Shown here piece after piece: positions 41,339 through 56,553 of a stretch of DNA of 64,000 nucleotides. The stretch is taken from positions 62,001-126,000 of the forward strand of contig NZ_FOPP01000012.1 of NCBI RefSeq assembly GCF_900113525.1. The letters are read 5' to 3'. The notes beneath the pieces were generated by a model. The model made no database searches. It was not told where the DNA came from and worked only from the letters and a program-made list of their open reading frames with translations. A program made the translations under genes and the position numbers. The stretch is from Pedobacter insulae (GTDB lineage: Bacteria; Bacteroidota; Bacteroidia; Sphingobacteriales; Sphingobacteriaceae). Position 1 is the first letter of the stretch. Each line of letters begins with the position of its first letter.

Positions 41339-42040
41339 TCATCTGCACTCTACTACATTAGCACTTGAGCGGATTTGATTGTTCGGGGATAGGAAAGGGA
41401 TTCCCAAGTTTACACTCCTAAGTATAAAGAGCGCCCCAATAAACAACGTAAACCAGGGGATCATCTTGTTTGGGCTAAAACGGATATAACGTTTCAGGTA
41501 AATGCCCCCCAAAGAAATCGCTAACATTAATGGCGTAGTACCGAGGCCAAAGAGGAGCATAAAACTGGCACCTCCAGTTATAGAGCCTGAATTGAGTGAA
41601 GTTACCAAAGCAAGATATACCATTCCACAGGGAATTAGCCCATTTAACATTCCGGCAAAAAAACCCCAAAAACGGAGCTTATGCACTTTGCCCATCAGGG
41701 TACTAATGGGTTCAATGAGTTTACGCTGTAAAGTATTAATTTGATTAACATATCTTCCTGTAAAATATATCAATGTAAAAACCACCATTAAACCCCCAAT
41801 TAATAAACTCAATGTTTGTTGATTGGTAAATAATTTAATACTATTACCTATCAACCCGGCTAACAGCCCGAAAACAGTATATACCACTATCCTTCCGGCC
41901 TGATACATCCCCAACTGCATGGCAGATACCAAATAATTATTTTTGGAAAGTGGCAAGCTGAGCATCAATGGGCCGCACATAATAGCACAGTGCATACTCC
42001 CTAAAAAGCCAAGCAGAAATGCTATCGAGAGATTACTCAT
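41339..42040 (-). CDS. Sulfite exporter TauE/SafE-family membrane protein of the cbb3 cluster
   Basis: This 233-residue polytopic membrane protein has about six helices. It carries the N-terminal GSMHCAIMCGPLMLSLP motif typical of the TauE/SafE members found beside cbb3 oxidase genes. A second helix pair contains FFAGMLNGLIPCGMVYLAL. The Cys residues close to the membrane suggest metal handling, perhaps copper for the oxidase; this is inference from context. It is the last gene of the cco operon and overlaps ccoH by four bases. Confidence 0.87.
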   Translation of the reverse strand: MSNLSIAFLLGFLGSMHCAIMCGPLMLSLPLSKNNYLVSAMQLGMYQAGRIVVYTVFGLLAGLIGNSIKLFTNQQTLSLLIGGLMVVFTLIYFTGRYVNQINTLQRKLIEPISTLMGKVHKLRFWGFFAGMLNGLIPCGMVYLALVTSLNSGSITGGASFMLLFGLGTTPLMLAISLGGIYLKRYIRFSPNKMIPWFTLFIGALFILRSVNLGIPFLSPNNQIRSSANVVECR

Positions 42041-42465
42041 AAAACAATGTCATTTTTAAACAGGTAGTTCTTACTTCCATTTTTCCAGCTTAGCTCCATA
42101 AACCATACACCACGATGCATTTTCTTGGTATCAATAAGAATTAGGTTGGAATCACCAATTGTGGAGCCCTTCATTAAAACATCTTCTTTTTTACTAGAGG
42201 GTCTCATCATTTTTAACTCATAGGTTGAATGATCTTTTAATTGAACAATAACCTGGAACTTACTAATTGTTATTTTCGGTTGAGCGCGATCTATCGATAC
42301 ATTCTGGATCGCATTAAACTCTTGGTTGTAATTGATACCTTTCTCGTAATAATCTTCTGCTACCAGCGGATCATTCCCATGCACAGTGAACATATAAACT
42401 ACCATTCCTATGATAAAAAGCATAAAAGCGATCATGCCTGATACTATTTTTGTTCCCCAATTCAT
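42037..42465 (-). CDS. ccoH: FixH/CcoH-family cbb3 oxidase assembly protein
   Basis: This 142-residue protein is anchored by one N-terminal helix (IVSGMIAFMLFIIGMVVYMF). It has the conserved DPLVAEDYYEKGINYNQE segment and a periplasmic Ig-like domain. FixH/CcoH is needed for late assembly of cbb3 oxidase. I prefer ATG 42465 (MNWGTK) to a start at 42510, since the helix follows it at the usual distance. It has a 4-base overlap with the safE-like gene and follows ccoG. Confidence 0.88.
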   Translation of the reverse strand: MNWGTKIVSGMIAFMLFIIGMVVYMFTVHGNDPLVAEDYYEKGINYNQEFNAIQNVSIDRAQPKITISKFQVIVQLKDHSTYELKMMRPSSKKEDVLMKGSTIGDSNLILIDTKKMHRGVWFMELSWKNGSKNYLFKNDIVL

Positions 42466-42510
42466 TTTATTTGTTTTTGTTATTGTTTTTCGTTGTGAGA
42501 TGTTAACCAA

Positions 42511-43878
42511 TTAGGGTTGCGAAAAGAAGGAAGTGGAAGTCCTGCTAACTACTTTACCCCCTGACAATATCTCGAAAACCACATTACTTTTAAAACTCTT
42601 TAGATTAGCCTGTTTTTTAATCAAAAAGAAAGTCAGGTGAGTCGACCCATCTTTTGGAAGAATTTCAGGCATTTGTATAAATTTTATCCGGTCAGTACTG
42701 TCATTTGTTCTAACACTGAACTTAATGTCTCTATTTGTTTTATTGATTAACTCTGCATTATAAAGATTGCTTACTGTTTTATCTTTATTGAGCTGATACA
42801 ATGTACCACTCGCTCTTAGCACAGTGGTTTCGACATCCTGCCTTTTGTAGATCAGACTTGAAAACGCTATTAATAGAACTAGCAGAACGGTACTGTATCC
42901 ATAGGCTTTCAAACCAATTTTGAACGGGCTTTGCGATTTAATAAAATCATTGGTGTGAAAGCCGATCAGGTTTGAAGGCCTATTGATCTTCACCATCACT
43001 TCATTACAACTATCTATACATGCTGTACAATTTACACATTCCAATTGTGTGCCATTGCGGATGTCAATTCCCGTTGGGCAAACCTGCACACATAATCCGC
43101 AATCAATACAATCGCCCTTAGCTAGGTCGACTGTATTTTTTTGGAGATGTGCCCTAGGTTCGCCGCGATTTTCGTTGTAAGCAACGATTAAGCTCTGATT
43201 ATCTAGCAATACTCCCTGTAATCTTCCATAAGGACAAATAACAGTACAAACTATTTCCCGTACGTAGGCAAAAACACCATAAAATATAAAAGTAAAGAGC
43301 CAAATGGATAGAAACCCAGTTAAATGACCAGCTATTGGCTCCGTTATAATCCTATATAAAGTAGCCGAGCTAATGATATAAGCTAAAAAAGTATTAGCTA
43401 TTGCGAACGAAATCAGCAAGAATAAAAAATGTTTACTTCCTTTCTTAATAACCTTCTCGATTGTCCAGGGCTGAGCATCTAATTTTCGCTGTTGATTGGC
43501 ATCTCCCTCAATCCAATATTCTATCCTTCTAAAAACCAGCTCCATGAAAATTGTCTGCGGACAAGCCCAGCCGCACCACAACCTACCGAGGATTACTGTA
43601 AAGCATACGATGAATATGATAAAGATGAGCATCGCCAATGCAAACAGATAAAAATCCTGTGGTGTAAAAATCAATCCAAAGAATACAAATTTCCGTTCTA
43701 GAAAATTAAGCAATACCAGCTGTTCATCATTCAATCTTAGAAATGGGAAAGAAAATAAGCACCCTAACAGCACATAACTTACCCATTTTCTATAGTTGTA
43801 TAATTTGCCAGCTGGTTTTTTCGGATATAGAAATTCCCGGCCATAGCTTTTTGGCTTAGTTTTTTGCGATGCTTTCAT
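42511..43878 (-). CDS. ccoG: cbb3 oxidase accessory protein CcoG
   Basis: This 455-residue membrane iron-sulfur protein has several helices in the first half (including WVSYVLLGCLFSFPFL). GRLWCGWACPQTIFMELVFRR is a family signature, with a CPYG motif following. Two ferredoxin-type clusters are bound at about 255-300 (CIDCGLCVQVCPTGID and CVNCTACIDSCNEVM). A C-terminal Ig-like FixG domain completes it. CcoG is a copper(II) reductase that supplies Cu(I) for the oxidase active site. It overlaps ccoP by 23 bases. Confidence 0.95.
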   Translation of the reverse strand: MKASQKTKPKSYGREFLYPKKPAGKLYNYRKWVSYVLLGCLFSFPFLRLNDEQLVLLNFLERKFVFFGLIFTPQDFYLFALAMLIFIIFIVCFTVILGRLWCGWACPQTIFMELVFRRIEYWIEGDANQQRKLDAQPWTIEKVIKKGSKHFLFLLISFAIANTFLAYIISSATLYRIITEPIAGHLTGFLSIWLFTFIFYGVFAYVREIVCTVICPYGRLQGVLLDNQSLIVAYNENRGEPRAHLQKNTVDLAKGDCIDCGLCVQVCPTGIDIRNGTQLECVNCTACIDSCNEVMVKINRPSNLIGFHTNDFIKSQSPFKIGLKAYGYSTVLLVLLIAFSSLIYKRQDVETTVLRASGTLYQLNKDKTVSNLYNAELINKTNRDIKFSVRTNDSTDRIKFIQMPEILPKDGSTHLTFFLIKKQANLKSFKSNVVFEILSGGKVVSRTSTSFFSQP

Positions 43879-44740
43879 TCGTCACGGTATCCTTCACGCT
43901 TTTATCTTCATATTTCTCACCCTGAGGCGCCTTCGGATTGGCAGGCTTGCTACCTTTCAGCGACATGATGTAATTAACCACTTCAGCAATGTTTTTTGAG
44001 CTTAAGTTTTTCTCCCAACTTGCCATTCCTTTAGCTGAAACGCCGTATTTTACAGTTTTAAATATATCAGAGATACTTCCACCATGCAGCCAAAATTCGT
44101 CTGTCAAATTCGGACCAACTGTTCCTTGTCCCTGGTCTCCGTGGCAGGCGACACAATTCGTCATAAATACAGCTTTACCGTTTGCAATCATTGAGCCATC
44201 TAATTTGATTGAGTTCTCGTCAAATTTTTCAGCTGCATTTGCTAAGAAAGCTCTTTTATCTTTAGCAGCCTTTTCTATTTCGGCAACGTATTCCTGATCT
44301 TGCATCGGTCCATTGCCAATATGGTAATAGTAAAGGTAACCTCCTGCAAAAATGATCGTAGCATAAAAAAGAATACTGAACCATTTCGGAACAGGATTAT
44401 TCAGTTCATGAATGCCGTCGTATGCATGGGGAATCAGCAGCGTTTGCTCTTCTTCTATAGGTTTAAGGCTCAGTAGCTTGCTCCAAACATTTGGTTTCGC
44501 TTTTTTCAATTTAGCCCATTCTAAGTAGTCAAGGGGCCCCGGTTGGTGCTCCTTTACCAATGGCATGGGCTTATCACCTTCCTTGATCATCACTTTAAGT
44601 GCTTTAAGCATGATGAATGTGGCTAGCAATGCTACTAAGGCAAAAACGAACAATGCTGCAATTAAAAGTTCCGTTGAAGTTAATCCAATAGTTGGAGCAT
44701 CGGCTAATGGAGTTGCGGAAATAAGGCTAATCTTCTTCAT
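43856..44740 (-). CDS. ccoP: cbb3-type cytochrome c oxidase, subunit CcoP-like
   Basis: This 294-residue subunit has two helices (about 24-47 and 130-150) and a C-terminal cytochrome c domain with one heme motif (CVACHG near 195) and a methionine ligand candidate in GVSAKGMASWEKNLS. Proteobacterial CcoP usually has two hemes; single-heme forms are usual in Bacteroidota. It delivers electrons to CcoNO. It overlaps ccoQ by 14 bases and ccoG by 23. Confidence 0.93.
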   Translation of the reverse strand: MKKISLISATPLADAPTIGLTSTELLIAALFVFALVALLATFIMLKALKVMIKEGDKPMPLVKEHQPGPLDYLEWAKLKKAKPNVWSKLLSLKPIEEEQTLLIPHAYDGIHELNNPVPKWFSILFYATIIFAGGYLYYYHIGNGPMQDQEYVAEIEKAAKDKRAFLANAAEKFDENSIKLDGSMIANGKAVFMTNCVACHGDQGQGTVGPNLTDEFWLHGGSISDIFKTVKYGVSAKGMASWEKNLSSKNIAEVVNYIMSLKGSKPANPKAPQGEKYEDKSVKDTVTNESIAKN

Positions 44741-44911: not shown

Positions 44912-47050
44912 TTATTGGTTTGAGGGAATAGTAAACTGGTTTGCTTTTATATCTGTACCCAAACGTTGCAGGTATGCAATGATGGCAATGATTTCTTTAT
45001 CACTTTTAACTTGGATATTATCCTTTTTAAGATCACGGGCAATTGAGTCGGCTTGTAAGCTTAGATCAGCATTGGCGATTTTATCGAAATCTTTTTCATA
45101 GGGCACGCCTAATGTTTGCATTGCCCTAATTTTTGCCGCCGTTGTTGCTGTATCCAATTTTTGGTTAATCAACCATTCATAATTCGGCATAATACTACCT
45201 GGAGACATTGAGGTTGGATCAAGCAAATGGTTAAAATGCCAAGCATTGCTATATTTCCCTCCTAGCCGATGTAAATCTGGACCTGTGCGTTTGCTTCCCC
45301 ACAAAAACGGGTGATCGTAAACAAACTCACCAGCTTTGCTATACTCCCCGTAGCGCTCCGTTTCTGAACGAAATGGACGGACGGTTTGCGAGTGACAGTT
45401 CACGCAGCCTTCTCGGATGTAAAGATCCCTTCCTTGTAGTTCGAGTGGTGTGTAGGGCTTTACACTTGCAATTGTTGGCACGTTAGATTGAATAGTGAAA
45501 GTTGGCATCATTTCTACCATACCACCTATAAGGATAATGATTAATGCATATATCATAAACTTAATTGGTTTACGCTCTAACCTTCTATGCCATTTTTTAT
45601 CAGCAGGATCTTCTGCAGCAACCTCTGTTAGAGGCATAGCTTCTGCGGGTTCGTTAGCTACGAGTTTGGCAGCCAACATCGTCTTGGCCAAATTAACCGT
45701 CATTACAATTACCCCAATAAGATATAGTGCTCCACCAATGGCTCTTAATACATGCATTGGTATAATCTGCAAAGTAGTTGATAAAAAATTCGGGTATTTG
45801 AGTAAGCCTTCTTGTGTAAACTCTTTCCACATAAGTCCTTGGGTAAAACCTGCCCAATACATTGGCACAGCATAGAACAAAATTCCTAGTGAGCCAATCC
45901 AAAAATGAAAGGCTGCCATCTTTTTTGAGTAGAGTTCAGTTCTATATAAACGTGGGATGAGCCAGTAAAGAATACCGAAAGTTAAAAACCCATTCCATCC
46001 CAATGCGCCAACATGTACGTGGGCAACGATCCAGTCGGTAAAATGGGCAACACCATTAATCTGTTTTAAAGAAAGTAGCGGACCTTCGAAAGTTGCCATA
46101 CCATAAGCGGTTAACGCAACTACCATAAACTTTAAAGTCACATCTTCACGTACTTTGTCCCATGCCCCACGAAGCGTGAGTAGCCCATTGATCATTCCAC
46201 CCCAGCTTGGGGCAATTAGCATGATAGAAAACGCAACGCCCAATGATTGTGCCCAACCTGGTAGAGAGCTATATAATAAATGGTGAGGCCCTGCCCAGAT
46301 ATAGATGAATATTAAGGACCAAAAATGCAGGATACTTAACTTGTAAGAATACACTGGTCTGTTCGCCATTTTTGGCAAGAAATAGTACATCATCCCCAAA
46401 TAAGGCGTAGTTAAGAAAAAAGCAACCGCATTGTGCCCATACCACCACTGTACCAATGCGTCTTGAACTCCAGCGTATACGTAGTAGCTTTTAAGAAACG
46501 AAATCGGAAGCTCGAAGGAATTTACGATATGCAACACAGCAATTGTAACGAATGTAGCAATGTAAAACCAAATGGCTACATATAAATGGCGCTCCCTTCT
46601 TTTGAAGATTGTGCCGAACATATTCACACCAAAAACCACCCAAATCAACGTAATGGCGATATCAATTGGCCATTCCAGCTCTGCATATTCGTGTGATGTG
46701 GTAAAGCCTAGCGGTAGCGTAATTACTGCTGAAATGATGATTAATTGCCAACCCCAAAAGTGAATTTTGCTCAATACATCACTAAACATTCTGGCTTTTA
46801 AGAGGCGTTGCAAGGAGTAGTAAACTCCCATAAAGATGGCATTGCCTACAAAAGCAAAAATAACGGCATTTGTATGCAAGGGTCTTATCCGGCCGAAGGT
46901 CGTGTATTGATTGCCCATGTTCATTGAAGGCTTAAATAGCTGCATGGCAACCAACAGTCCAACAGTCATCCCGATAATGCCCCAAACTATCGTGGCAAGT
47001 CCAAAATTGCGGACAATCTTGTTATCGTAGGTAAATTTTTCTAGCTGCAT
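44912..47050 (-). CDS. ccoN: cbb3 oxidase fused subunits CcoN-CcoO
   Basis: This 712-residue fusion of the catalytic heme-copper subunit CcoN (about 1-475, 12 helices) with the cytochrome subunit CcoO (about 510-705) is the normal form in Bacteroidota. Heme and copper histidines lie in RPLHTNAVIFAF, the WWYGHNAVAFFLTTPYLG loop and TDWIVAHVHVGALGW. The CcoO heme motif is CVNCHS near residue 548, with SPGSIMPNYEWL giving the Met ligand. This high-affinity terminal oxidase is used at low oxygen. An FNR-like box and an exact -7 element lie upstream. Confidence 0.97.
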   Translation of the reverse strand: MQLEKFTYDNKIVRNFGLATIVWGIIGMTVGLLVAMQLFKPSMNMGNQYTTFGRIRPLHTNAVIFAFVGNAIFMGVYYSLQRLLKARMFSDVLSKIHFWGWQLIIISAVITLPLGFTTSHEYAELEWPIDIAITLIWVVFGVNMFGTIFKRRERHLYVAIWFYIATFVTIAVLHIVNSFELPISFLKSYYVYAGVQDALVQWWYGHNAVAFFLTTPYLGMMYYFLPKMANRPVYSYKLSILHFWSLIFIYIWAGPHHLLYSSLPGWAQSLGVAFSIMLIAPSWGGMINGLLTLRGAWDKVREDVTLKFMVVALTAYGMATFEGPLLSLKQINGVAHFTDWIVAHVHVGALGWNGFLTFGILYWLIPRLYRTELYSKKMAAFHFWIGSLGILFYAVPMYWAGFTQGLMWKEFTQEGLLKYPNFLSTTLQIIPMHVLRAIGGALYLIGVIVMTVNLAKTMLAAKLVANEPAEAMPLTEVAAEDPADKKWHRRLERKPIKFMIYALIIILIGGMVEMMPTFTIQSNVPTIASVKPYTPLELQGRDLYIREGCVNCHSQTVRPFRSETERYGEYSKAGEFVYDHPFLWGSKRTGPDLHRLGGKYSNAWHFNHLLDPTSMSPGSIMPNYEWLINQKLDTATTAAKIRAMQTLGVPYEKDFDKIANADLSLQADSIARDLKKDNIQVKSDKEIIAIIAYLQRLGTDIKANQFTIPSNQ

Positions 47051-47079: not shown

Positions 47080-47087
47080 CAAAAGTA
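47080..47087 (-). promoter_or_regulatory. -7 element of the ccoNO operon
   Basis: The minus strand reads TACTTTTG, an exact TAnnTTTG match, about 30 bases before the ccoNO start. No TTG lies at the -33 distance, as expected for a promoter that needs an activator. Its centre is 55 bp from the centre of the FNR-like box at 47132-47145. Confidence 0.7.
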
Positions 47088-47131
47088 TTTATTGTGGTAT
47101 TGAGCGAACGTGATGATACTTAGTCGAAAAA

Positions 47132-47145
47132 GTGATCTTTGTCAC
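47132..47145 (-). promoter_or_regulatory. FNR/CRP-like box upstream of ccoNO
   Basis: GTGATCTTTGTCAC contains TGA-N6-TCA, with flanking G and C extending the dyad to GTGA-N6-TCAC. Its predicted distance to the transcription start is about 62 bp, the class-I activator position. The same box and spacing occur at two other promoters in this island. The regulator is probably the receiver/FNR fusion at 52433-53461. Confidence 0.72.
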
Positions 47146-47157
47146 AAAAGTGATTTC

Positions 47158-47325
47158 TTACGACTCAACCTGCTCTTCGTCTACGGGCTCCTCATCAAAC
47201 AAAACCCTCATTCCAGGGGTGACCACATCATCATGTTGCCCATTTTTGAGCGACCAGTAGAATGCACCTAAAAAAATCAATGCCATCAGCACACTGCAGC
47301 CTACCAAAAAATAAAGAATGTTCAT
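47158..47325 (-). CDS. ccoS: cbb3 oxidase assembly protein CcoS
   Basis: This 55-residue protein translates as MNILYFLVGCSVLMALIFLG and onward, with one N-terminal helix followed by AFYWSLKNGQHDD. That matches the FLAFFWAVRSGQFDD-like signature of CcoS, needed for insertion of heme and copper cofactors into cbb3 oxidase. The acidic tail ends EEQVES. Its ATG overlaps the ccoI stop (ATGA), so the two are translationally coupled. Confidence 0.92.
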   Translation of the reverse strand: MNILYFLVGCSVLMALIFLGAFYWSLKNGQHDDVVTPGMRVLFDEEPVDEEQVES

Positions 47326-49706
47326 AAAAGATTATTTTTTCGCGCAAAAAACCTGGTTGCTATCGAAGTAAAACTGATGATGGTAATGGTACTGATTGGC
47401 ATCAAAACCGCAGCAACAAGCGGATAAAGCGTACCCTGTATGGCAAAGTATAAGCCAACACAGTTATAAGCACTGGCTATGACAAAACTGATTTTAATAG
47501 TTTTCAGGCCATCTTTACTCATTTGGAAAAAATTAGGCAGCAGATCAAGCGAACTTCCTTTCAAGATAGCATCACAGCCTGGGGTAAAGTTGTTTACATC
47601 ATCTGTAACCGCAATTCCGAAATCACTCTGTTTTAGTGCTCCAGCATCATTAAGTCCATCACCTAACATCATTACTTGTTCTCCTTTTTGTTGTTGATGT
47701 TTAATCTCTTCCAGTTTTTGAAGAGGGCTCTGCTCAAATTTCAGGTCTGCCGATAACGGAAAAAAAGTTTTTAATGCTTTTTCATCTTTGTTGTTATCTC
47801 CAGATAAAACCTTTAAAGTAAAATATTTATTCAAGCTACTCAATAACACTCCCAATTTCGGCCTCCATTGTTGTTCTACTATAAATGTACCTTTGTATGC
47901 GCTATTGATCACGATGTGAACTCCGTGGTGTTGATTAGGTTGGATATCAAATGGTAAGATAGCGGGACTACCTGCATAAACCATTTGTTGGTTAACCAGT
48001 CCTCTTATCCCTTTTCCAGGAATTTCTTTGTATCTGGAGATCGGGTAAAATTGTTCAATAGCCAGGCTTTTTAAGATTTGTCTACTAAGCGGATGTGACG
48101 AATGGTTCAACAAAGAGACGATCAGCATTTTTTCCATTGGATTAAGCGTCCCCTTAAAAAGGATTTTGGCGTTTTCTGTAGTCGTTAAGGTTCCTGTTTT
48201 ATCAAATACTATGGAAGTACATTTTGCGAGTGCTTCTAACGAATCCGTATTTTTTACATAAAAGTCCTTTTTATCGAATACTGCTAAAATAGCAGATAGC
48301 GTAAATGGTGTACTTAACGCTAAAACACACGGACAAGCTACAATAATAACGGCTGTAAAAGCTAACCAGGCTTTGGACGCATCATTCATTAAGTACCAGT
48401 ACCCCATTGCTGAAAACGCAATTACAAAAACGGCCATGCTAAAATATTTCGCTACGCTATCATTAAAATTCTGTTTAAAATGATTCACGTAATGATCCTT
48501 ATTCCACAAACTGGTCAAGTAGCTTTGAGAAGCATTTTTTACGACCTCTATCTCAATTCCCTCTCCCATTTGTTTGCCTCCCGCGTAGATAATTTCCCCC
48601 AAAACCTTTTGTTGAGGTTCGGTTTCCCCTGTCACGAAACTCATATCCATCCATGCATCTCCCCTCATCAAAATAGAATCTGCAGGGACTAGCTCTCCAT
48701 TACGGATCCATAACCGGTCGCCAATAGTCAATTCACTGATCGCTTTTGGTTGTTCTTTTCCATCAACTAGCGTAGTAACTGCAATGGGGAAATAAGAGCG
48801 ATAATCGCGATCAAACGAAATATGGTGATAAGTGCGTTGTTTCACCCATTTGCCCATCAAAAGTAAAAATACCAGTCCCGTTAAGGTATCGGCAAATCCG
48901 GGTTCATTAGTAAATAACACTGAAACAATTGTCCTTAAAAACAGGACTGAAATAATCAACGCCAATGGCGTGTCTAGATTTACATGCCCATGCTTTAAAC
49001 TTGTAATTGCAGATGTGAAATAATCTTTCGCGCAATAAAAAACTACCGGCATACAAAAGGCAAGATTAAGCCAACCAAATAATGCCTGAAATTGCCGCTC
49101 TAAACCAGAAAGTCCAAAATATTCGGGGAAGCTGAATAGCATGACATTCCCCATGCAAAAGCCTGCAACTGCAATTTTTAGAATGAGGCTTTTATTAACT
49201 GAATGACTATTTTCCCTCACTACGTCCTGCAAGCTGATAGATGGCTCATAGCCAATTTGTGCTAAGATTTCTACCACTCCTTTTAAACTTACGGCTTTAT
49301 GCTTATAACTAACAGTTACCTCTTTCTTTAAAAAATCTATTCTAGACGAGTAAATCGCTGAATTTATTTTATAAAGGTGTTCCAGTAGCCAGATGCAGGA
49401 GCTACAGTGTATTGCCGGAATATAAAAAGTAACGATTGCATTAGTTTCATCTTTATAGTCGACCAGTTTTTTCTCAATAGTTGGTTCGTCTAGATATTCA
49501 AAATGGCTAGTACTATTTAGTCGTTTTCCGGGATTTTCGTTATAGGCATAATAACTACACATTTTATTTGCAGAAAGAATCTGGTAAACGCCCATACATC
49601 CTGCACAGCAAAAATGCTTTTGGTCGACTGAAAAGTCTACCCCCCTCACATCTTCACCACAATGGTAGCATGAAATCGCACTAAAAGTTGTTTGTTGTTT
49701 CATCAT
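47322..49706 (-). CDS. ccoI: cbb3-type copper-translocating P-type ATPase
   Basis: This 794-residue P1B ATPase supplies copper for cbb3 oxidase. The N-terminus has a zinc-ribbon-like CYHCGED/CCAGC element and a heavy-metal domain with HCSSCIWLLE. The transmembrane metal site is ACPCVLALS (near 460). The phosphorylated Asp lies in FDKTGTLT (near 500), with LGDGLNDAGAL further on, and HP appears in NHSSHPLSRQ. CcoI-type sequences sit next to ccoS, as here. It follows hemN by nine bases. Confidence 0.95.
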   Translation of the reverse strand: MMKQQTTFSAISCYHCGEDVRGVDFSVDQKHFCCAGCMGVYQILSANKMCSYYAYNENPGKRLNSTSHFEYLDEPTIEKKLVDYKDETNAIVTFYIPAIHCSSCIWLLEHLYKINSAIYSSRIDFLKKEVTVSYKHKAVSLKGVVEILAQIGYEPSISLQDVVRENSHSVNKSLILKIAVAGFCMGNVMLFSFPEYFGLSGLERQFQALFGWLNLAFCMPVVFYCAKDYFTSAITSLKHGHVNLDTPLALIISVLFLRTIVSVLFTNEPGFADTLTGLVFLLLMGKWVKQRTYHHISFDRDYRSYFPIAVTTLVDGKEQPKAISELTIGDRLWIRNGELVPADSILMRGDAWMDMSFVTGETEPQQKVLGEIIYAGGKQMGEGIEIEVVKNASQSYLTSLWNKDHYVNHFKQNFNDSVAKYFSMAVFVIAFSAMGYWYLMNDASKAWLAFTAVIIVACPCVLALSTPFTLSAILAVFDKKDFYVKNTDSLEALAKCTSIVFDKTGTLTTTENAKILFKGTLNPMEKMLIVSLLNHSSHPLSRQILKSLAIEQFYPISRYKEIPGKGIRGLVNQQMVYAGSPAILPFDIQPNQHHGVHIVINSAYKGTFIVEQQWRPKLGVLLSSLNKYFTLKVLSGDNNKDEKALKTFFPLSADLKFEQSPLQKLEEIKHQQQKGEQVMMLGDGLNDAGALKQSDFGIAVTDDVNNFTPGCDAILKGSSLDLLPNFFQMSKDGLKTIKISFVIASAYNCVGLYFAIQGTLYPLVAAVLMPISTITIISFTSIATRFFARKNNLL

Positions 49707-49715
49707 CTTATCAAT

Positions 49716-51056
49716 TTAAACAGCAGCACTAAATAGCGAGGTTTGGGGCTGCTTTAACCATAGTCGTTCATCAAAGGCCATACAGATGTTTCGCAAAAAA
49801 GACTTGCCGATTTTATTGATACGTATCTCTTGTGTGTCCATTTCTAGCAGTTCATCTTCCAGAAAAGGTTTGAGTCTTTGCTTAATCATTGAAGGGATTT
49901 CAGTTGTAAATCTTGTAGCTCCTTTACACATTAGGTTTAAAATGTGCTGTCTAATATCAAGGTCTTTTTCATTCAGTAAGTGACCTTTTTCTATCGCAAG
50001 TTGCCCACTGTTAATTTGCGATAGGTAAGACTCCACTGTTTTAGCATTTTGCGCAAATGCTGTTTGGCAATCACTGATGGAGGAAACACCTAAGCCAATT
50101 AATATTTTTGTATACCGGTCAGTATAACCCATGAAATTTCGGTGTAGCTGATGGTTTTCACTGGCTTGATATAAACTATCTTTCACAAGTGCAAAATGAT
50201 CCATTCCAATTTCCTTGTAACCTGCTTCAAGTAGCAATTTTCTTCCCATCTGATATAATGAGAATTTTTCGTCGTCCTGCGGAATGTCTTTTTCTGCGTA
50301 ATGACGTTGTCCAGGTTTCAGCCATGGAACATGGGCATAGCTATAAAATGCGATGCGATCCGGCCTCATGTTTATTACTTCTGTTATAGTGTGGGACAGG
50401 CCGGTTAAAGTTTGCCCCGGCAAACCATATATCAGGTCAAAATTAACCGAGCCATAACCAATTGCCCTAGCTTCGGAGGTAATCCTAAAAACTTGTTCTG
50501 GTGTTTGAAAACGATTAATCATTAACTGCACCTTTGCATCAAAATCCTGAATACCCAAACTCAATCGTTTAAACCCGAGTTGATGAAGAGTTTGTAAATG
50601 AGCAATCGTAGTGTTATTTGGATGCCCTTCAAATGAACATATTACCTCTTTGTTGTCTTCGCCCAGTATGGCTACCATTAACCTTTGCAGGTTTTCTGGA
50701 CTGAAAAAAGTAGGCGTTCCCCCACCAAGGTGCAGTTCGGCAATCTTTGGCCTTCCGCCTAATATAGTTGCATATAACTCCCATTCCTTTATTACTGCCT
50801 CAATATATGGCTTTTCGACCCCATGATTTTTAGTAATCCGAGTATTGCAACCACAATAAGTACAAAGACTTTCGCAGAAAGGGAGGTGGATATAGACACT
50901 AATTCCCTGTTCCTTGACACTGGAGTAGGTTTTTATTAGTGACGTTAACCAAGCTTCTTTACTAAAACTTTCACTATCCCAATAGGGAACTGTGGGATAA
51001 CTCGTATAGCGAGGTGCTGCAATGTTATACTTTTTAAGCAGAGTTACAGTATCCAT
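49716..51056 (-). CDS. hemN: Oxygen-independent coproporphyrinogen III oxidase
   Basis: This 446-residue radical-SAM enzyme makes protoporphyrinogen IX without oxygen. The cluster motif CESLCTYCGC is near residue 63, followed by ELHLGGGTPTFFSPE, RLSLGIQDFD and FDLIYGLPGQT. C-terminal HemN-type RFQTPEQV and IGLGVSSIS segments fit HemN rather than HemW. It is needed for heme supply under low oxygen and lies between the Ldh-fragment gene and ccoI in one operon. Confidence 0.95.
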   Translation of the reverse strand: MDTVTLLKKYNIAAPRYTSYPTVPYWDSESFSKEAWLTSLIKTYSSVKEQGISVYIHLPFCESLCTYCGCNTRITKNHGVEKPYIEAVIKEWELYATILGGRPKIAELHLGGGTPTFFSPENLQRLMVAILGEDNKEVICSFEGHPNNTTIAHLQTLHQLGFKRLSLGIQDFDAKVQLMINRFQTPEQVFRITSEARAIGYGSVNFDLIYGLPGQTLTGLSHTITEVINMRPDRIAFYSYAHVPWLKPGQRHYAEKDIPQDDEKFSLYQMGRKLLLEAGYKEIGMDHFALVKDSLYQASENHQLHRNFMGYTDRYTKILIGLGVSSISDCQTAFAQNAKTVESYLSQINSGQLAIEKGHLLNEKDLDIRQHILNLMCKGATRFTTEIPSMIKQRLKPFLEDELLEMDTQEIRINKIGKSFLRNICMAFDERLWLKQPQTSLFSAAV

Positions 51057-51057
51057 C

Positions 51058-51483
51058 TCATTTCAGCACTTTAGTGTTTACCGCGCAATCCCTTTGACAA
51101 CAGCATGCATCTCCTACGCATTTGCCTGCCGCCCAATTGTCGAGGTTGGCAATAACCTGATGCATATTTTCTAATGCCCCTCCATCCTTAAATGGAATGT
51201 TAGCAATTTTTAAACCAACAGCATTTGCAGTTAATAAGTCGACATGACCATAATCAAATGAAGATATGGCGATATATTTAATGCCCTGCGCCTTTAATCC
51301 AGTAATAATAGGTGCATTCAAAGGATCCTTGTTAAATACAATAAGTGCTTCCTTGCCTGCCGCAAAATTTAATGTATCAAGCGTTAGGCTATTGGCAATA
51401 ATTGTAATGTCATGCTTTTTATAATTAGCTAAAATCAGCCATTCTTTTTCTTTCGGGTTGATATTATAAGCGATAGCTTTCAT
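51058..51483 (-). CDS. Isolated D-lactate-dehydrogenase N-terminal-like domain with Cys cluster
   Basis: This 141-residue protein has residues 1-100 resembling the substrate-side domain of D-2-hydroxyacid dehydrogenases (EALIVFNKDPLNAPIITGL, IKYIAISSFDYGHVDLLTAN, VGLKIANIP). The NAD-binding Rossmann domain is absent. In its place is a short helical segment and a Cys-rich tail with Cys in the pattern C-x4-CCC-x2-C (GKCVGDACCCQRDC). This is not a recent truncation: the gene is coupled to hemN (1-base gap) and has its own FNR-type promoter. The role is unknown; a metal or redox-sensing module is possible. Confidence 0.75.
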   Translation of the reverse strand: MKAIAYNINPKEKEWLILANYKKHDITIIANSLTLDTLNFAAGKEALIVFNKDPLNAPIITGLKAQGIKYIAISSFDYGHVDLLTANAVGLKIANIPFKDGGALENMHQVIANLDNWAAGKCVGDACCCQRDCAVNTKVLK

Positions 51484-51502: not shown

Positions 51503-51510
51503 CAAAACTA
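51503..51510 (-). promoter_or_regulatory. -7 element of the Ldh-fragment/hemN/ccoI/ccoS operon
   Basis: The minus strand reads TAGTTTTG, an exact TAnnTTTG match, 20 bases before the ATG at 51483. Its centre is 55 bp from the centre of the TGA-N6-TCA box at 51555-51568, the same distance as at ccoNO. Confidence 0.7.
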
Positions 51511-51554
51511 CTTTAGCTGTCTTTCCTAGCTGATGAGCATCGTTATATTAAAAA

Positions 51555-51568
51555 ATGATATTAATCAG
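51555..51568. promoter_or_regulatory. FNR-like box between divergent hemN operon and truncated hemoglobin
   Basis: ATGATATTAATCAG holds TGA-N6-TCA, with an extended TGAT/ATCA dyad. It stands in the class-I position for the minus-strand operon. For the plus-strand hemoglobin gene its centre lies about 42 bases before the ATG, so it could only act as a class-II site if the mRNA had almost no leader. Confidence 0.68.
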
Positions 51569-51602: not shown

Positions 51603-52010
51603 ATGAAATACAAAGACTCACTAGTAAAAACCGACATTGAAAACCTGCAGCATATCCAACAATTAGTGAATTCCTTTTATGCTACGGTACAAAAAGATCC
51701 GCTTATTGGCGATATATTTACGAACAGGATAAAAGACTGGCCAGCGCATTTAGCCAAAATGTACCGCTTTTGGCAAACCGTGTTACTGGAAGAGCATACT
51801 TATAGTGGAAGCCCTTTCCCACCTCATGCAAAAATGCCATTAACCGCTGCTCATTTTAATCGTTGGGTAGAAATCTGGGCGGAAACCATAACTTTGTTCT
51901 TTGGAGGAGAGAAAGCAAGCGAGGCAAAGAGACGTGGAGAAGCAATGGCAACAATGTTTCTTGCTAAAATTGAATTCTACAAAGACAGCAACTTAAAACC
52001 GCTTTTATGA
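51603..52010 (+). CDS. Group III truncated hemoglobin
   Basis: This 135-residue 2-on-2 globin begins DIENLQHIQQLVNSFYATVQKDPLIGDIF. It has the Trp-rich MYRFWQTVLLEEHTYSGSP and the proximal-His stretch AAHFNRWVEIWAETI. Group III globins occur in aerobic and microaerobic bacteria and may handle NO or peroxide or supply oxygen at low tension. It is divergent from the hemN operon and overlaps the next gene by four bases (ATGA). Confidence 0.93.
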   Translation: MKYKDSLVKTDIENLQHIQQLVNSFYATVQKDPLIGDIFTNRIKDWPAHLAKMYRFWQTVLLEEHTYSGSPFPPHAKMPLTAAHFNRWVEIWAETITLFFGGEKASEAKRRGEAMATMFLAKIEFYKDSNLKPLL

Positions 52011-52432: not shown

Positions 52433-53461
52433 CTATTGTTTAACGTTTCTTAATTTTTCAATAGAAAGGATTTGTATAGCATTACCATTTTTCTCGATCA
52501 GCTTTTCATCCTTAAAATCTGCTAGCATACGGCTAACTGTTTCGCTCGCTGTACCTACAAGTGCTGCAAGGTCATCTCTAGATACCCTTAGGGTACAACT
52601 ATCATTCCCTGGTTCACCAAATTTATCAGCTACCTGTACAAGCGCATCTGCCACGCGTTTACGAACAGAAAAATAAGCTAAGCGCAACATTTGTTCTTCC
52701 TTTTCCTGAACACTACCTGAAAGCATATCAATAAATGCGCTGGCAATTTCTTGATGGTTAAGCAAATATTCCATAAAATCTGCCTTTGTGATCAGGATAA
52801 TTTCCGCATCGTTTAACGTTGCTGCGTTATCAGCATATACGGTTGATTTGCATAGGCTTTCGTAACCGAAAAAATCACCATCCCTATACAAAGTAGAAGA
52901 TAGTTCCCGGCCGTCTTTTGCTCTTTTATAGGTTTTAACCTGACCTGTTTTAAGAAAATATAAATAGGACGGTTCATCATTTTCAACGTAAATAATCTGT
53001 TTGTTTGAAAATTGACGAGTTTTTCCCTTAGCTTTCAACGACTCAAACAAAGCCTCACGATTGCCTCCAACCGATTTGAAACCTGCAGGTTTGTTCTTTT
53101 TTTTCAATCGGCTTTCGATAGCGTTAAAGAGTTCCATGTCATCGAAGGGTTTAGTAAGGTAATCATCCGCCCCCATTTCCATACCCTTTCTCATATCTGC
53201 CCGTTCTGCCTTAGCGGTCATGAAAATAAATGGGATATTGGCAGTTTGCTGATTCTTTTGCAACAAGTACAGCACACCATATCCATCCAATTCGGGCATC
53301 ATGATGTCACATAGGATGATATCTGGCAGGTGTTTTATAGCCAGATCAACACCAATTTTTCCATTTTTGGCGGTAAAAGTTTCATAACCTGCCAAGTCTA
53401 ATATTTCTGCAGTTCCCTCTCTAATATCGTCGCTATCTTCAATAATAAGTGCTTTTTTCAT
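52433..53461 (-). CDS. Response-regulator receiver fused to a CRP/FNR-type DNA-binding protein
   Basis: This 342-residue regulator has a receiver domain (1-120) with Asp 52 in ILCDIMMPELDG, Thr 82 and Lys 104. A cyclic-nucleotide-binding-type beta-roll (about 135-255, FSNKQIIYVENDEPSYLYFL) follows, then the dimer helix and the CRP/FNR helix-turn-helix. The recognition helix is SETVSRML, with Glu 307, Ser 310 and Arg 311 in the E-xx-SR arrangement by which FNR reads TGA half-sites. It lacks FNR's N-terminal cluster cysteines, so oxygen input would come by phosphorylation. The FixL-like kinase lies 11 bases upstream. Confidence 0.92.
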   Translation of the reverse strand: MKKALIIEDSDDIREGTAEILDLAGYETFTAKNGKIGVDLAIKHLPDIILCDIMMPELDGYGVLYLLQKNQQTANIPFIFMTAKAERADMRKGMEMGADDYLTKPFDDMELFNAIESRLKKKNKPAGFKSVGGNREALFESLKAKGKTRQFSNKQIIYVENDEPSYLYFLKTGQVKTYKRAKDGRELSSTLYRDGDFFGYESLCKSTVYADNAATLNDAEIILITKADFMEYLLNHQEIASAFIDMLSGSVQEKEEQMLRLAYFSVRKRVADALVQVADKFGEPGNDSCTLRVSRDDLAALVGTASETVSRMLADFKDEKLIEKNGNAIQILSIEKLRNVKQ

Positions 53462-53472
53462 AAACCTTATAA

Positions 53473-54675
53473 TTAGAAATTAAAATGTATCCTAAAAGTT
53501 GTCCCCACATTCTGTGTACTCTCGCAGATACACGTACCATTCATCAAACCGACGTAACGCTTTACAATATTCAATCCAAGTCCTGTACCTGGGATGTCTC
53601 CTGTATTATGTGCCCTAAAAAACGGTTCGAAAAGATTATTCATTTCTGTAGATGGTATGCCTATTCCGTTGTCTTTAATTTCTATGATCAGCTCATGTTC
53701 GTTAACAGTACTATTGAACTGGATCATCGTGTCTTCACCGGAATATTTAATGGCATTAGAAATCAAGTTGATGATACAATTTTTCAACAAGTTTTGATCT
53801 AAAAAAACATCTCCCGTGGTGCCTTTATGCTCATATACTATGAGTTGCTTTTGCTTAGTCATCAACTGCATTTCCTCTGCAATCTCCTCCGCAAAAGCAA
53901 AAATATCGAACCAATTGGGGTTAGCTTCTACTTTGCCTGCCTCTAACTTTTCCAATGAAAGGAAATCATTCAATATTGTAGTGAGGTTATTAATCGAGTT
54001 CTTTATTTTTGAGGTGTGCTTTTCAACACTTTCTACATCATGTTTCTCAATATATTTATTAATTAGGGAAGCAGACAATTGGATAGAGCTTAATGGTGTA
54101 CGAAACTCATGGGAAGCCATTGAAACAAATCTTGTTTTCAACTGGTTAAGCTCTCGTTCCTTTTCAAATAGCGTACTCATGTGTTCTTTTGCAGTCTCCA
54201 GCTCATTAACCGACTTGATCAACTCCTTCGTCCGCTCCTTCACCTTCAATTCCAGCTCTTCTGTGTAACTTTTGATCTTTATTTCATCCTCTCTTTGCCT
54301 TGTGAGGTCATGGATAAAGCCAGTATAAATTCTACGGTCGACAAACCTGATTTCACTTACACCTAATCTGAAGGGGAAAGTGCTACCATCCTTACGCTGA
54401 CCAGTTACTTCGCGCCCGATGCCTATGATTTTCTTTTTTCCAGTATTTTCATAATTTGCTAAGTAACCATCATGCCTGTGCTTGTCTGGCTCAGGCATTA
54501 ATACGGAAACATTTTTACCTACCAATACATCCCTCGATGGGTAGCCAAATAATTCCAGCGCTGCTGGGTTAATATTTTCAATTAGCCCCCTATCATCGAT
54601 CGTTATAATTCCATCGATCGCGTTTTCTATAATTGCGACCAGCAATTTTTCTCTTTCCATTGTTGAGTACTTCAT
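53473..54675 (-). CDS. FixL-like heme-PAS oxygen-sensing histidine kinase
   Basis: This 400-residue cytosolic kinase has a PAS domain (about 8-128) of the FixL heme type: NVSVLMPEPDKHRHDGYL, then KKIIGIGREVTGQRKDGSTF and YTGFIHDLT. His 68 followed by Asp corresponds to the proximal heme ligand His 200 of Bradyrhizobium FixL, and Arg 88 lies exactly 20 residues later, like distal Arg 220. FixL Arg 206 is replaced by Asn 74. A coiled linker, HisKA (His 189 in MASHEFRTPLSS) and HATPase (NLISNAIKYSG, DNGIGIP, GTGLGLNIV) follow. It probably phosphorylates the receiver/FNR fusion encoded next. Confidence 0.9.
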   Translation of the reverse strand: MKYSTMEREKLLVAIIENAIDGIITIDDRGLIENINPAALELFGYPSRDVLVGKNVSVLMPEPDKHRHDGYLANYENTGKKKIIGIGREVTGQRKDGSTFPFRLGVSEIRFVDRRIYTGFIHDLTRQREDEIKIKSYTEELELKVKERTKELIKSVNELETAKEHMSTLFEKERELNQLKTRFVSMASHEFRTPLSSIQLSASLINKYIEKHDVESVEKHTSKIKNSINNLTTILNDFLSLEKLEAGKVEANPNWFDIFAFAEEIAEEMQLMTKQKQLIVYEHKGTTGDVFLDQNLLKNCIINLISNAIKYSGEDTMIQFNSTVNEHELIIEIKDNGIGIPSTEMNNLFEPFFRAHNTGDIPGTGLGLNIVKRYVGLMNGTCICESTQNVGTTFRIHFNF

Positions 54676-54701: not shown

Positions 54702-56483
54702 TTATATAGTAAGCCCTAACAATGTTGTTTCCGCAAAAGTTAGTGGATTATGTATTTGGTCCTTAAAAGATCTTACTTCATCAGAAAACTCTCCAAATAG
54801 ATTTCTGTAATACGCTATGCCTTCTAAAAGATGGGTTTTGAACTTATTAAGCTGTAACTGCTTTTTACTATTAAAATCAACAACCAACAAATTTACTGCT
54901 TCTTGGAGGTATTTAACGTACAGATCCAGTTCCTTGATCAGCACATTCGGCCGCCTTACTTCCTCCATGAGGTTAATCCTCCCATAGATATGTGAAACCA
55001 TCTCGTCCAAAGAATAAGTTCTTGAAAAATAGGCTAAGTTTGGACCAGGGCAGATCGCTACCGCCTTGCTCTCTTTCGGTTTTAATATACCAATTTTCTG
55101 ATAAGTTGAACTACATAATCCTTCGCACAAACACACCTTTTCAGTGATTTTGTCAAACTGTCTTTCAAACTCTTCGTTAGACAGCTCTTGTGCTTTTAGT
55201 TCCTTGATTTTAAGATTCTGGTAAGCTCTTGAGGCGGTACAGATAGGCTCGGCTGTGAATTCTGTGTTGCTGCAGAGATATTTTTTGGTACAGGGGCTGC
55301 CTGGCCTTCCTTTTCTGATTCTTTCCAATCTTTCTGCATCTATCCCAGCGCTCTTAAAATTATTAAAGAGCACACCCAGCGGTGAGGAGTTACTTAGGTA
55401 AAATGAATGCTCATCGGCTTCAGCTAATTTGCTTAAAGTAGCTTCATCTACATTTGTTGCTTCAGGAACCAGTAAAAAGGGACTTCCCCAGCCAGTTGAA
55501 TCAAGTTGATAATTTTTAAGCAGAAACTCATTCTCTTGTGCCGTTCCGATACCACCCTGTACGCTCAATTTTTGTTGAGGTGAGCAGTCGCTGTTTAAAC
55601 CCTTTTCAGAAAGGCCAGTTCTGTATAAGGCTAAGAGTTCTGTATTCATCTGCGTCTTCATCTGTTTAAATTCTTCTAAAATAGGCCCTAGCAAGTAACC
55701 GTCGGTTGCAAAAGCATGACCACCGCAATTGAGCCCACTTTCTACGCGAAATTCTGAAACCCAAAGACCTTTTTTAGCTAAGAATTTTGCTTGAATAAAG
55801 GCCGAACGGAAATCACTTACTTTTAAGATGATTTTCTTTTTTAATACATTATCTTCATCAGGGAAAAAATCTTCAAACTTTTCAAGGTAACTATATAAGC
55901 GTGGGTTCATTCCAGCAGACAGCACCACCGATGAACTCAACCTGCTTTTTGCAAATCCGCGGAGGGCAGTTAAGGCATCGCTATTTTCCTCAGAACCAAA
56001 AGCTGCCTCCTTTTCAGGGCTCATTCGATCAACCTTTGCCATGATATTCACATCAATAGCTCCCAATTCCATACGCTTGCGAAGGATGTTTTGAAAAATA
56101 GTCTTACGTTCTGCGTCAGGATATTCCATCATAAGCTCATACCCTTGCTTTAATTGCGAATTGTCTGGTAATAGTTCAAAGTATCTACAGAGGTCATTTC
56201 CTTCTTTAAAGGGAAGCTGTTTCATTGCCTCAAAATCTCGTTCAACAATTCGCGCTAGTGTATCAAGGTAACACGTTATTCTTCTCGCTCTACTGTCGTG
56301 ACTCTTTTTGGCAATTGGAACATACGGCTCGCCTTGTTGTTGACTATGGTATTGGCGCATGCGCTCAATAAGCTCATCATCTACAATGGAAACTACCGAA
56401 GAAATACCATATTTAGCCACTTTAAGTGGAGTATCAATAGAAAAACCCAGGCCTAAAACCGGAATGTGAAATTTATGCATCAT
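54702..56483 (-). CDS. Cys-rich FMN-type TIM-barrel-like protein, function unknown
   Basis: This 593-residue protein has no signal peptide. The beginning (HIPVLGLGFSIDTPLKVAKY) and two internal segments (ESGLNCGGHAFATDGYLLGP and VQGGIGTAQENEFLL then WGSPFLLVPEATNVDE) resemble the flavin-binding parts of nitronate-monooxygenase/FabK-type barrels, but with long insertions. A C-terminal third carries clustered Cys (PCTKKYLCSN, PICTAS, VCLCEGLC, ICPGPN) that could hold an iron-sulfur cluster. It is the first gene before the FixL-like kinase and shares its oxygen-responsive promoter. I know no characterised homologue. The start is ATG 56483 or ATG 56480. Confidence 0.75.
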   Translation of the reverse strand: MMHKFHIPVLGLGFSIDTPLKVAKYGISSVVSIVDDELIERMRQYHSQQQGEPYVPIAKKSHDSRARRITCYLDTLARIVERDFEAMKQLPFKEGNDLCRYFELLPDNSQLKQGYELMMEYPDAERKTIFQNILRKRMELGAIDVNIMAKVDRMSPEKEAAFGSEENSDALTALRGFAKSRLSSSVVLSAGMNPRLYSYLEKFEDFFPDEDNVLKKKIILKVSDFRSAFIQAKFLAKKGLWVSEFRVESGLNCGGHAFATDGYLLGPILEEFKQMKTQMNTELLALYRTGLSEKGLNSDCSPQQKLSVQGGIGTAQENEFLLKNYQLDSTGWGSPFLLVPEATNVDEATLSKLAEADEHSFYLSNSSPLGVLFNNFKSAGIDAERLERIRKGRPGSPCTKKYLCSNTEFTAEPICTASRAYQNLKIKELKAQELSNEEFERQFDKITEKVCLCEGLCSSTYQKIGILKPKESKAVAICPGPNLAYFSRTYSLDEMVSHIYGRINLMEEVRRPNVLIKELDLYVKYLQEAVNLLVVDFNSKKQLQLNKFKTHLLEGIAYYRNLFGEFSDEVRSFKDQIHNPLTFAETTLLGLTI

Positions 56484-56487
56484 TCTA

Positions 56488-56495
56488 CAAAAATA
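56488..56495 (-). promoter_or_regulatory. -7 element of the barrel-protein/kinase/regulator operon
   Basis: The minus strand reads TATTTTTG, an exact TAnnTTTG match. Its centre is 55 bp from the TGA-N6-TCA box at 56540-56553. Transcription would begin near 56484, so the mRNA would be almost leaderless with respect to the ATGs at 56483 and 56480. Confidence 0.62.
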
Positions 56496-56539
56496 TTGCT
56501 ACTATACAAAGCACTGCAACCCTCTAGTCACCAAAAAAA

Positions 56540-56553
56540 ATGATCTTGGTCAC
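56540..56553. promoter_or_regulatory. FNR-like box 1 in the divergent regulator/transpeptidase spacer
   Basis: ATGATCTTGGTCAC shares 12 of 14 bases with the ccoNO box and contains TGA-N6-TCA. It lies in the class-I position for the minus-strand operon that ends with the kinase and regulator genes, implying autoregulation. Confidence 0.7.

Follow-up and report, generated by a model that had tools for sequence, protein, structure and literature searches.

In the 64,000-nucleotide stretch of DNA analyzed here (the window), from the soil bacterium Pedobacter insulae, genes for a histidine kinase and for a response regulator with a CRP/FNR-type output module (REC-CRP) stand beside hemN and a complete cco cluster (Table 1). 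This arrangement raises the question of whether the pair could switch on its neighbors at low oxygen and, if so, whether it represents the rhizobial FixL-FixJ-FixK pathway folded into two proteins, as a preliminary description of the locus had proposed.

Both genes are on the minus strand, separated by 11 bp, and the gene for a 593-aa Cys-rich protein, for which we found no Pfam or NCBIfam match, lies 26 bp upstream of the kinase gene. In many Pedobacter genomes this 593-aa gene heads the predicted kinase/REC-CRP operon, and elsewhere it is found nearby in related genomes. The product of the 141-aa LDH-like gene resembles the N-terminal part of 2-hydroxyacid/D-lactate dehydrogenases and has a Cys-rich tail; the gene is kept between REC-CRP and hemN in most loci. 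A weak match to bacterial globins (PF01152, 24.7 bits versus 21.0) occurs at window positions 51603 to 52010 on the plus strand, transcribed away from the hemN operon. The neighbors had been described as all being low-oxygen genes, which is too broad, as they also include an L,D-transpeptidase gene, a DUF6920 gene, and the 593-aa gene without a family match.

Table 1. Genes and predicted promoter elements of the kinase/REC-CRP locus (window positions)
Feature	Position	Strand	Remarks
593-aa/kinase/REC-CRP operon, upstream dyad TGACCAAGATCA	56541..56552	-	predicted centre -63.5
593-aa/kinase/REC-CRP operon, promoter-proximal site TGACTAGAGGGT	56519..56530	-	one half-site only; predicted centre -41.5
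593-aa/kinase/REC-CRP operon, -7 element TATTTTTG	56488..56495	-	
593-aa Cys-rich protein	54702..56483	-	first gene of predicted operon with kinase and REC-CRP
FixL-type heme-PAS (predicted) histidine kinase, 400 aa	53473..54675	-	PAS about 12-125 (His68, Arg88), HisKA (His189), HATPase
REC-CRP/FNR fusion response regulator, 342 aa	52433..53461	-	Asp52; recognition helix E307-S310-R311
LDH-like/hemN/ccoI promoter, upstream dyad TGATTAATATCA	51556..51567	-	
LDH-like/hemN/ccoI promoter, second site TAACGATGCTCA	51534..51545	-	22 bp downstream of first
LDH-like/hemN/ccoI promoter, -7 element TAGTTTTG	51503..51510	-	
141-aa LDH-like protein	51058..51483	-	first gene of predicted target operon
hemN, oxygen-independent coproporphyrinogen III oxidase	49716..51056	-	predicted target; TIGR00538, 397 bits versus cut-off 325
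CcoI-like heavy-metal P-type ATPase	47322..49706	-	predicted target
ccoS, 55 aa	47158..47325	-	TIGR00847, FixS
ccoNO promoter, upstream dyad TGACAAAGATCA	47133..47144	-	
ccoNO promoter, second site TAAGTATCATCA	47111..47122	-	22 bp downstream of first
ccoNO promoter, -7 element TACTTTTG	47080..47087	-	
Fused ccoN-ccoO, cbb3 oxidase subunits I/II	44912..47050	-	predicted target; NF011053, 1316 bits
ccoP, subunit III	43856..44740	-	
ccoG/fixG	42511..43878	-	TIGR02745
fixH/ccoH	42037..42510	-	

The kinase and its PAS sensor

Domain searches resolved the kinase into PAS, HisKA, and HATPase domains. Its hydrophobicity stayed too low for a membrane segment throughout (the highest Kyte-Doolittle mean over 19 residues was 1.05), and the kinase is predicted to be soluble. 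The best solved relative of its PAS domain is the FixL heme domain 1d06 (E = 1.7e-30), with other FixL entries next, including 1dp6, and dimeric FixL (8js5) matches the protein by sequence as well as by fold in a search with the kinase model. In an alignment with FixL of Bradyrhizobium and Sinorhizobium, His68 falls on the heme-ligand His and Arg88 on the pocket Arg, and the IIGIGR and HDGY stretches are matched as well; the domain carries the heme-ligand His, the pocket Arg, and the Ile residues characteristic of FixL. As a control, the 21 other PAS matches of the same genome were inspected at these heme-PAS columns, and none has both the His and the Arg. These results bear out the preliminary description insofar as it assigned a FixL heme-PAS signature to the kinase. 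The 20-residue spacing between His and Arg, which had been offered as a mark of FixL, is indeed present but proved a weaker test than claimed: several partner kinases have PAS domains that are not FixL-type and lack the remainder of the pocket but retain both residues, so that the spacing taken alone is weak evidence.

The likeness to FixL is confined to the PAS domain. The FixL model NF041777 matches kinase residues 7 to 141 with a score of 173.7 versus a full-length cut-off of 850, its best stretch being the PAS domain only, and the protein falls outside the full-length FixL family once the kinase half is included. That half is closest to HK853 (101 bits, versus 46 bits for the FixL-kinase chimera 4gcz) and is best described as HK853-like on these matches. 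The AlphaFold model of the full kinase was of moderate quality (pLDDT 79, pTM 0.47) and was left out of our reading of the domain arrangement.

The REC-CRP protein and its relatives

The fusion of a receiver (Asp52) to a CRP/FNR DNA-binding domain with E307, S310, and R311 was confirmed in both its residues and its domains, namely, Response_reg (residues 5 to 116), cNMP_binding (149 to 235), and HTH_Crp_2 (268 to 339). The AlphaFold model has a mean pLDDT of 88.5 and a loose linker at residues 123 to 132, and residues about 146 to 340 match the fold of CRP structures, including Mycobacterium tuberculosis CRP (3d0s; TM-score by target, 0.85) and GlxR (3r6s), which themselves lack a receiver. 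Across 109 REC-CRP relatives, Asp9, Asp52, Thr82, and Lys104 of the receiver and Glu307 and Arg311 of the recognition helix are invariant, and position 310 is Ser in 91. Cys51 (window positions 53309 to 53311, minus strand), just before the phosphoacceptor Asp52, is likewise invariant in the 109 relatives.

FixJ joins a receiver to a LuxR/GerE-type DNA-binding domain, in place of which REC-CRP has cNMP_binding and HTH_Crp domains, and the receiver, which had been called FixJ-like, is better assigned to a PleD/PhoB-like family, its best family models being PleD, RpaB, CseB, and PhoB, with PleD leading among solved structures. REC-CRP shares with the FixK/FNR branch the cNMP-binding fold and the Crp helix-turn-helix with an E..SR recognition helix, but members of that branch are proteins of about 230 aa without a receiver, whereas REC-CRP carries one at its N terminus (residues 5 to 116).

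The CRP module itself offers few clues to a ligand. The residues through which Escherichia coli CRP contacts cAMP are missing from REC-CRP: E72, R82, and S83 are replaced by Tyr, Tyr, and Ala, which sets the protein apart from the cAMP-dependent CRPs. The FNR 4Fe-4S cysteine set is absent as well, the only cysteines of REC-CRP being C51, C204, and C289, of which C51, in the receiver, is the sole invariant one. With the cAMP contacts replaced and no FNR cysteine set, the module is left without an evident ligand of its own, which makes the receiver the likely input of the protein.

The nearest relatives of the window point to a Pedobacter genome. Among 297 genomes sampled from the phylum Bacteroidota, 44 encode full-length REC-CRP, and the best 80 genome loci and the plasmid matches all belong to this phylum. 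In 106 of the 109 loci, REC-CRP is immediately preceded by a kinase gene of the same orientation, so that kinase and receiver form a conserved adjacent pair with intact phosphorylation residues, as expected of a two-component system, and the FixL-type signature (defined as His-Asp/Asn at 68-69, Ile-Gly at 84-85, and Arg88) is kept in 91 of the 106 adjacent kinases, all 91 having His68, Arg88, and the IIG stretch. The gene order kinase, REC-CRP, LDH-like 141-aa gene, hemN, ccoI is common to much of the Sphingobacteriaceae, often with cco next.

The remaining 15 of the 106 partner kinases, all from the phylum sample outside the Sphingobacteriaceae, carry a non-FixL PAS domain, and oxygen sensing is therefore not a fixed property of the REC-CRP family. 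In these 15 loci, identity to the proteins of the window is 16 to 35% for the PAS domain, 43 to 51% for the kinase half, and 58 to 72% for the receiver, and this pattern is most simply explained by an exchange of the sensor module, with the kinase/REC-CRP backbone conserved. In the REC-CRP tree, which was midpoint-rooted for drawing only and from which the order of the sensors in time is not readable, the FixL-type pairs fall into a single group of 24, with one outlier. At loci L092, L095, L098, L101, and similar ones from other Bacteroidota families, the partner-kinase PAS domain is of a different class with an MGxGRDL motif.

Promoter dyads and their predicted binding protein

The genes around the pair share a promoter arrangement. 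Among related loci, the 593-aa gene has a TGA-N6-TCA dyad upstream in 35 of 40 (shuffle mean, 3.0), the LDH-like gene in 60 of 78 (6.2), and ccoNO in 27 of 34 (2.4); these counts are not independent events, as the loci are of common ancestry. N6 is the only spacing raised and TGA the top trinucleotide upstream of these three genes, and dyad counts upstream of the operon-internal hemN and ccoI are near background. The center of the dyad lies exactly 51 bp above a TAnnTTTG element in 95 of the 107 promoters having one at 50 to 52 bp, and a second, weaker dyad (T[GA]A-N6-TCA) follows 22 bp downstream of the first. No two of these 95 promoters are identical, the sequence between the fixed positions varying freely. 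The position -41.5 is that of the class II activators CRP and FNR. In Flavobacterium psychrophilum, TAnnTTTG (the Bacteroidota -7 element) spans -12 to -5 (PMC9723704), and the two site centers are therefore predicted at -63.5 and -41.5, with the start-site spacing borrowed from that species.

Composite promoters of this kind are concentrated at the locus. The window contains three, before the kinase operon, the LDH-like/hemN/ccoI operon, and ccoNO, versus 0.09 expected under a first-order Markov model, and the whole 4.39-Mb genome contains seven, three of them within 9.5 kb at this locus. A scan of 1.3 Mb of related loci gave 121, of which 108 stand before these genes, versus 0 for the reversed pattern, and over 61 Sphingobacteriaceae genomes there are 167 versus 43 for the reversed control. 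Of the other four matches in the P. insulae genome, one, inside a SusC-like gene, looks like chance. Another, at genome position C14:232068 (L257 about 1500), is flanked by a 162-aa gene and a divergently oriented universal stress protein gene; it may be real and mark a possible fourth target.

Two other patterns were tried and set aside: a looser dyad was uninformative over the whole genome (445 hits per strand versus 386 for the reversed control), and hits to the classical FNR box TTGAT-N4-ATCAA were scattered, none convincing before these genes, so that TGA-N6-TCA was preferred. This core is common to the Pedobacter dyads and the anaerobox, TTGAT-N4-ATCAA (PMC7888657), and, as in an anaerobox-type regulon, it stands upstream of cco and hemN.

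The dyad points to the CRP/FNR family as the binder, and the E-x-x-S-R helix and the TGA-N6-TCA core fit REC-CRP by the established CRP/FNR code. A simple presence/absence test, in which the dyad would occur only with REC-CRP, failed: dyads precede cco in 10 of 19 REC-CRP-negative loci, compared with 23 of 29. As genomes without REC-CRP carry similar dyads, the presence of a dyad is by itself insufficient to name REC-CRP as the binder; it is from the position of its gene, its helix, and the tandem arrangement that we infer that REC-CRP is the protein bound.

It is improbable, though the least so of the alternatives, that another CRP/FNR protein of the cell binds the dyads and that the pair is a target rather than the main regulator, or competes at the same sites. 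REC-CRP-negative genomes usually have a plain FNR-type gene (GTATES-x-IR helix) near ccoNO, dyads occur there too, and the P. insulae genome encodes about ten further cNMP-domain proteins, among which some short CRP/FNR-like ones carry E-x-x-S-R helices. However, these short proteins end soon after that helix, and the helices of the two full-length paralogs (YETVFK and RVVVSR) each lack one of the TGA-reading residues of CRP and FNR, the Arg or the Glu. The promoters also differ in layout, the dyad being at offset 29 in REC-CRP-negative flavobacteria and the strong dyad at 51 in Sphingobacteriaceae promoters; where REC-CRP-negative loci have an in-register -7 element, the dyad is mostly single, at the -41.5 position. 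Moreover, in most loci one target promoter comes immediately after the REC-CRP gene, and we retain REC-CRP as the predicted binder.

A predicted two-protein switch and its relation to known circuits

Building on the domains, the conserved residues, the conserved pair, the shared promoter arrangement, and the absence of cAMP contacts seen in the sequences, we propose, with a probability of about 0.7, a two-protein low-oxygen switch running from the kinase through REC-CRP to cco, hemN, and the pair's own operon. The soluble kinase would bind heme in its FixL-type PAS domain, and heme without oxygen would lead it to autophosphorylate at His189 and to pass the phosphate to Asp52 of REC-CRP. Phosphorylation of the receiver would then activate the CRP/FNR module fused to it, in which neither the usual cAMP residues nor those for an Fe-S cluster are present, and two REC-CRP dimers at the tandem TGA-N6-TCA sites (-63.5 and -41.5) would recruit RNA polymerase, acting by activation rather than repression. 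The predicted targets are the 593-aa/kinase/REC-CRP operon, giving positive feedback, the LDH-like/hemN/ccoI/ccoS operon, and the ccoNO operon, and the outcome would be more high-affinity cbb3 oxidase and more oxygen-independent heme synthesis at low oxygen. The promoter arrangement before these genes and before the pair's own operon is what a shortcut from a FixL-type kinase to an FNR-like activator predicts and supports such a route.

Heme PAS domains bind several gases, and neither the choice of ligand nor the sign of the response is readable from sequence. We nevertheless consider it unlikely that the PAS domain binds heme but senses NO, CO, or redox, or that the kinase is active in air and phosphorylated REC-CRP represses the low-oxygen genes, as the heme-ligand His, the pocket Arg, and the IIGI stretch of the oxygen sensor FixL all have their match in this pocket, and tandem sites upstream of a -7 element are typical of activation. 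That the PAS domain lacks heme, its FixL likeness reflecting descent only, and that the kinase senses something else is very improbable, since His68, Arg88, and the IIG stretch are kept in the 91 FixL-type relatives and the His-Arg pair is in none of the other 21 PAS domains of the genome, even though the different PAS class on the same backbone in other families indicates that the sensor can change.

The proposed oxygen switch resembles several known circuits without coinciding with any of them. In rhizobia, the regulator addressed by FixL is FixJ (for hFixL it is FxkR), and this regulator has to transcribe fixK (PMC4999443, PMC7888657). The Pedobacter pair is like FixL-FixJ-FixK in its heme-PAS kinase signature, its CRP/FNR-family final activator, and its target genes, cco (fixNOQP type) and accessory genes, but unlike it in having neither FixJ nor a fixK transcription step, a PleD/PhoB-like receiver fused to the CRP/FNR module, and an HK853-like kinase half. 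The hFixL-FxkR-FixK circuit of Rhizobium leguminosarum and R. etli is similar in that a FixL variant reaches cco via a non-FixJ regulator (PMC7888657, PMC4999443); FxkR, however, still transcribes fixK, whereas in Pedobacter the phosphorylated protein itself would be FNR-like. With FNR/FnrN and the plain cco-linked FNR-type proteins of REC-CRP-negative Bacteroidota, REC-CRP shares the CRP/FNR fold, TGA-N6-TCA sites, and linkage to cco, but those proteins have no receiver, and REC-CRP has no FNR-type cysteine cluster. No nifH was found above the cut-off in the genome, and the circuit would therefore serve respiration, not nitrogen fixation.

The idea of FixL-FixJ-FixK folded into two proteins thus holds in that a FixL-type PAS kinase is paired with a receiver-FNR fusion. 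Descent from FixLJK is unsupported: the PAS domain is the only FixL-like part, the kinase half resembles HK853 and the receiver PleD/PhoB, and the same backbone occurs elsewhere in Bacteroidota with a different PAS domain; the locus is better read as a Bacteroidota kinase/REC-CRP system that carries a FixL-type sensor. In agreement with the preliminary description, which knew of no described Bacteroidota system of this form, we found none in the open-licence literature that we searched. The parts of the system are of known kinds, and it is their pairing and the promoter arrangement that appear to be new. The odds seem about even that the REC-CRP family, with its exchangeable kinase sensors, is its own class of microaerobic two-component regulator, in which the signal passes directly from an oxygen-sensing kinase to an FNR-like activator with paired dimers at -63.5 and -41.5, replacing plain FNR beside cco in these lineages.

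The open-licence literature that we searched says little about how aerobic Bacteroidota induce their high-affinity oxidase. In F. psychrophilum, the transcriptome shows induction of the cbb3 oxidase and of heme synthesis by oxygen limitation, for which the parts of that study drawn on here name no regulator (PMC9723704). The Pedobacter locus supplies a sensor, an activator, exact predicted binding sites, and a small predicted regulon. If the proposed switch is true, it would exemplify in nature a three-step oxygen cascade cut to two proteins and a response regulator with an FNR-type activator as its output domain. The pair, which many Bacteroidota relatives also carry, and the paired sites before the low-oxygen respiration genes beside it together suggest a shortened, two-protein version of the rhizobial oxygen circuit.
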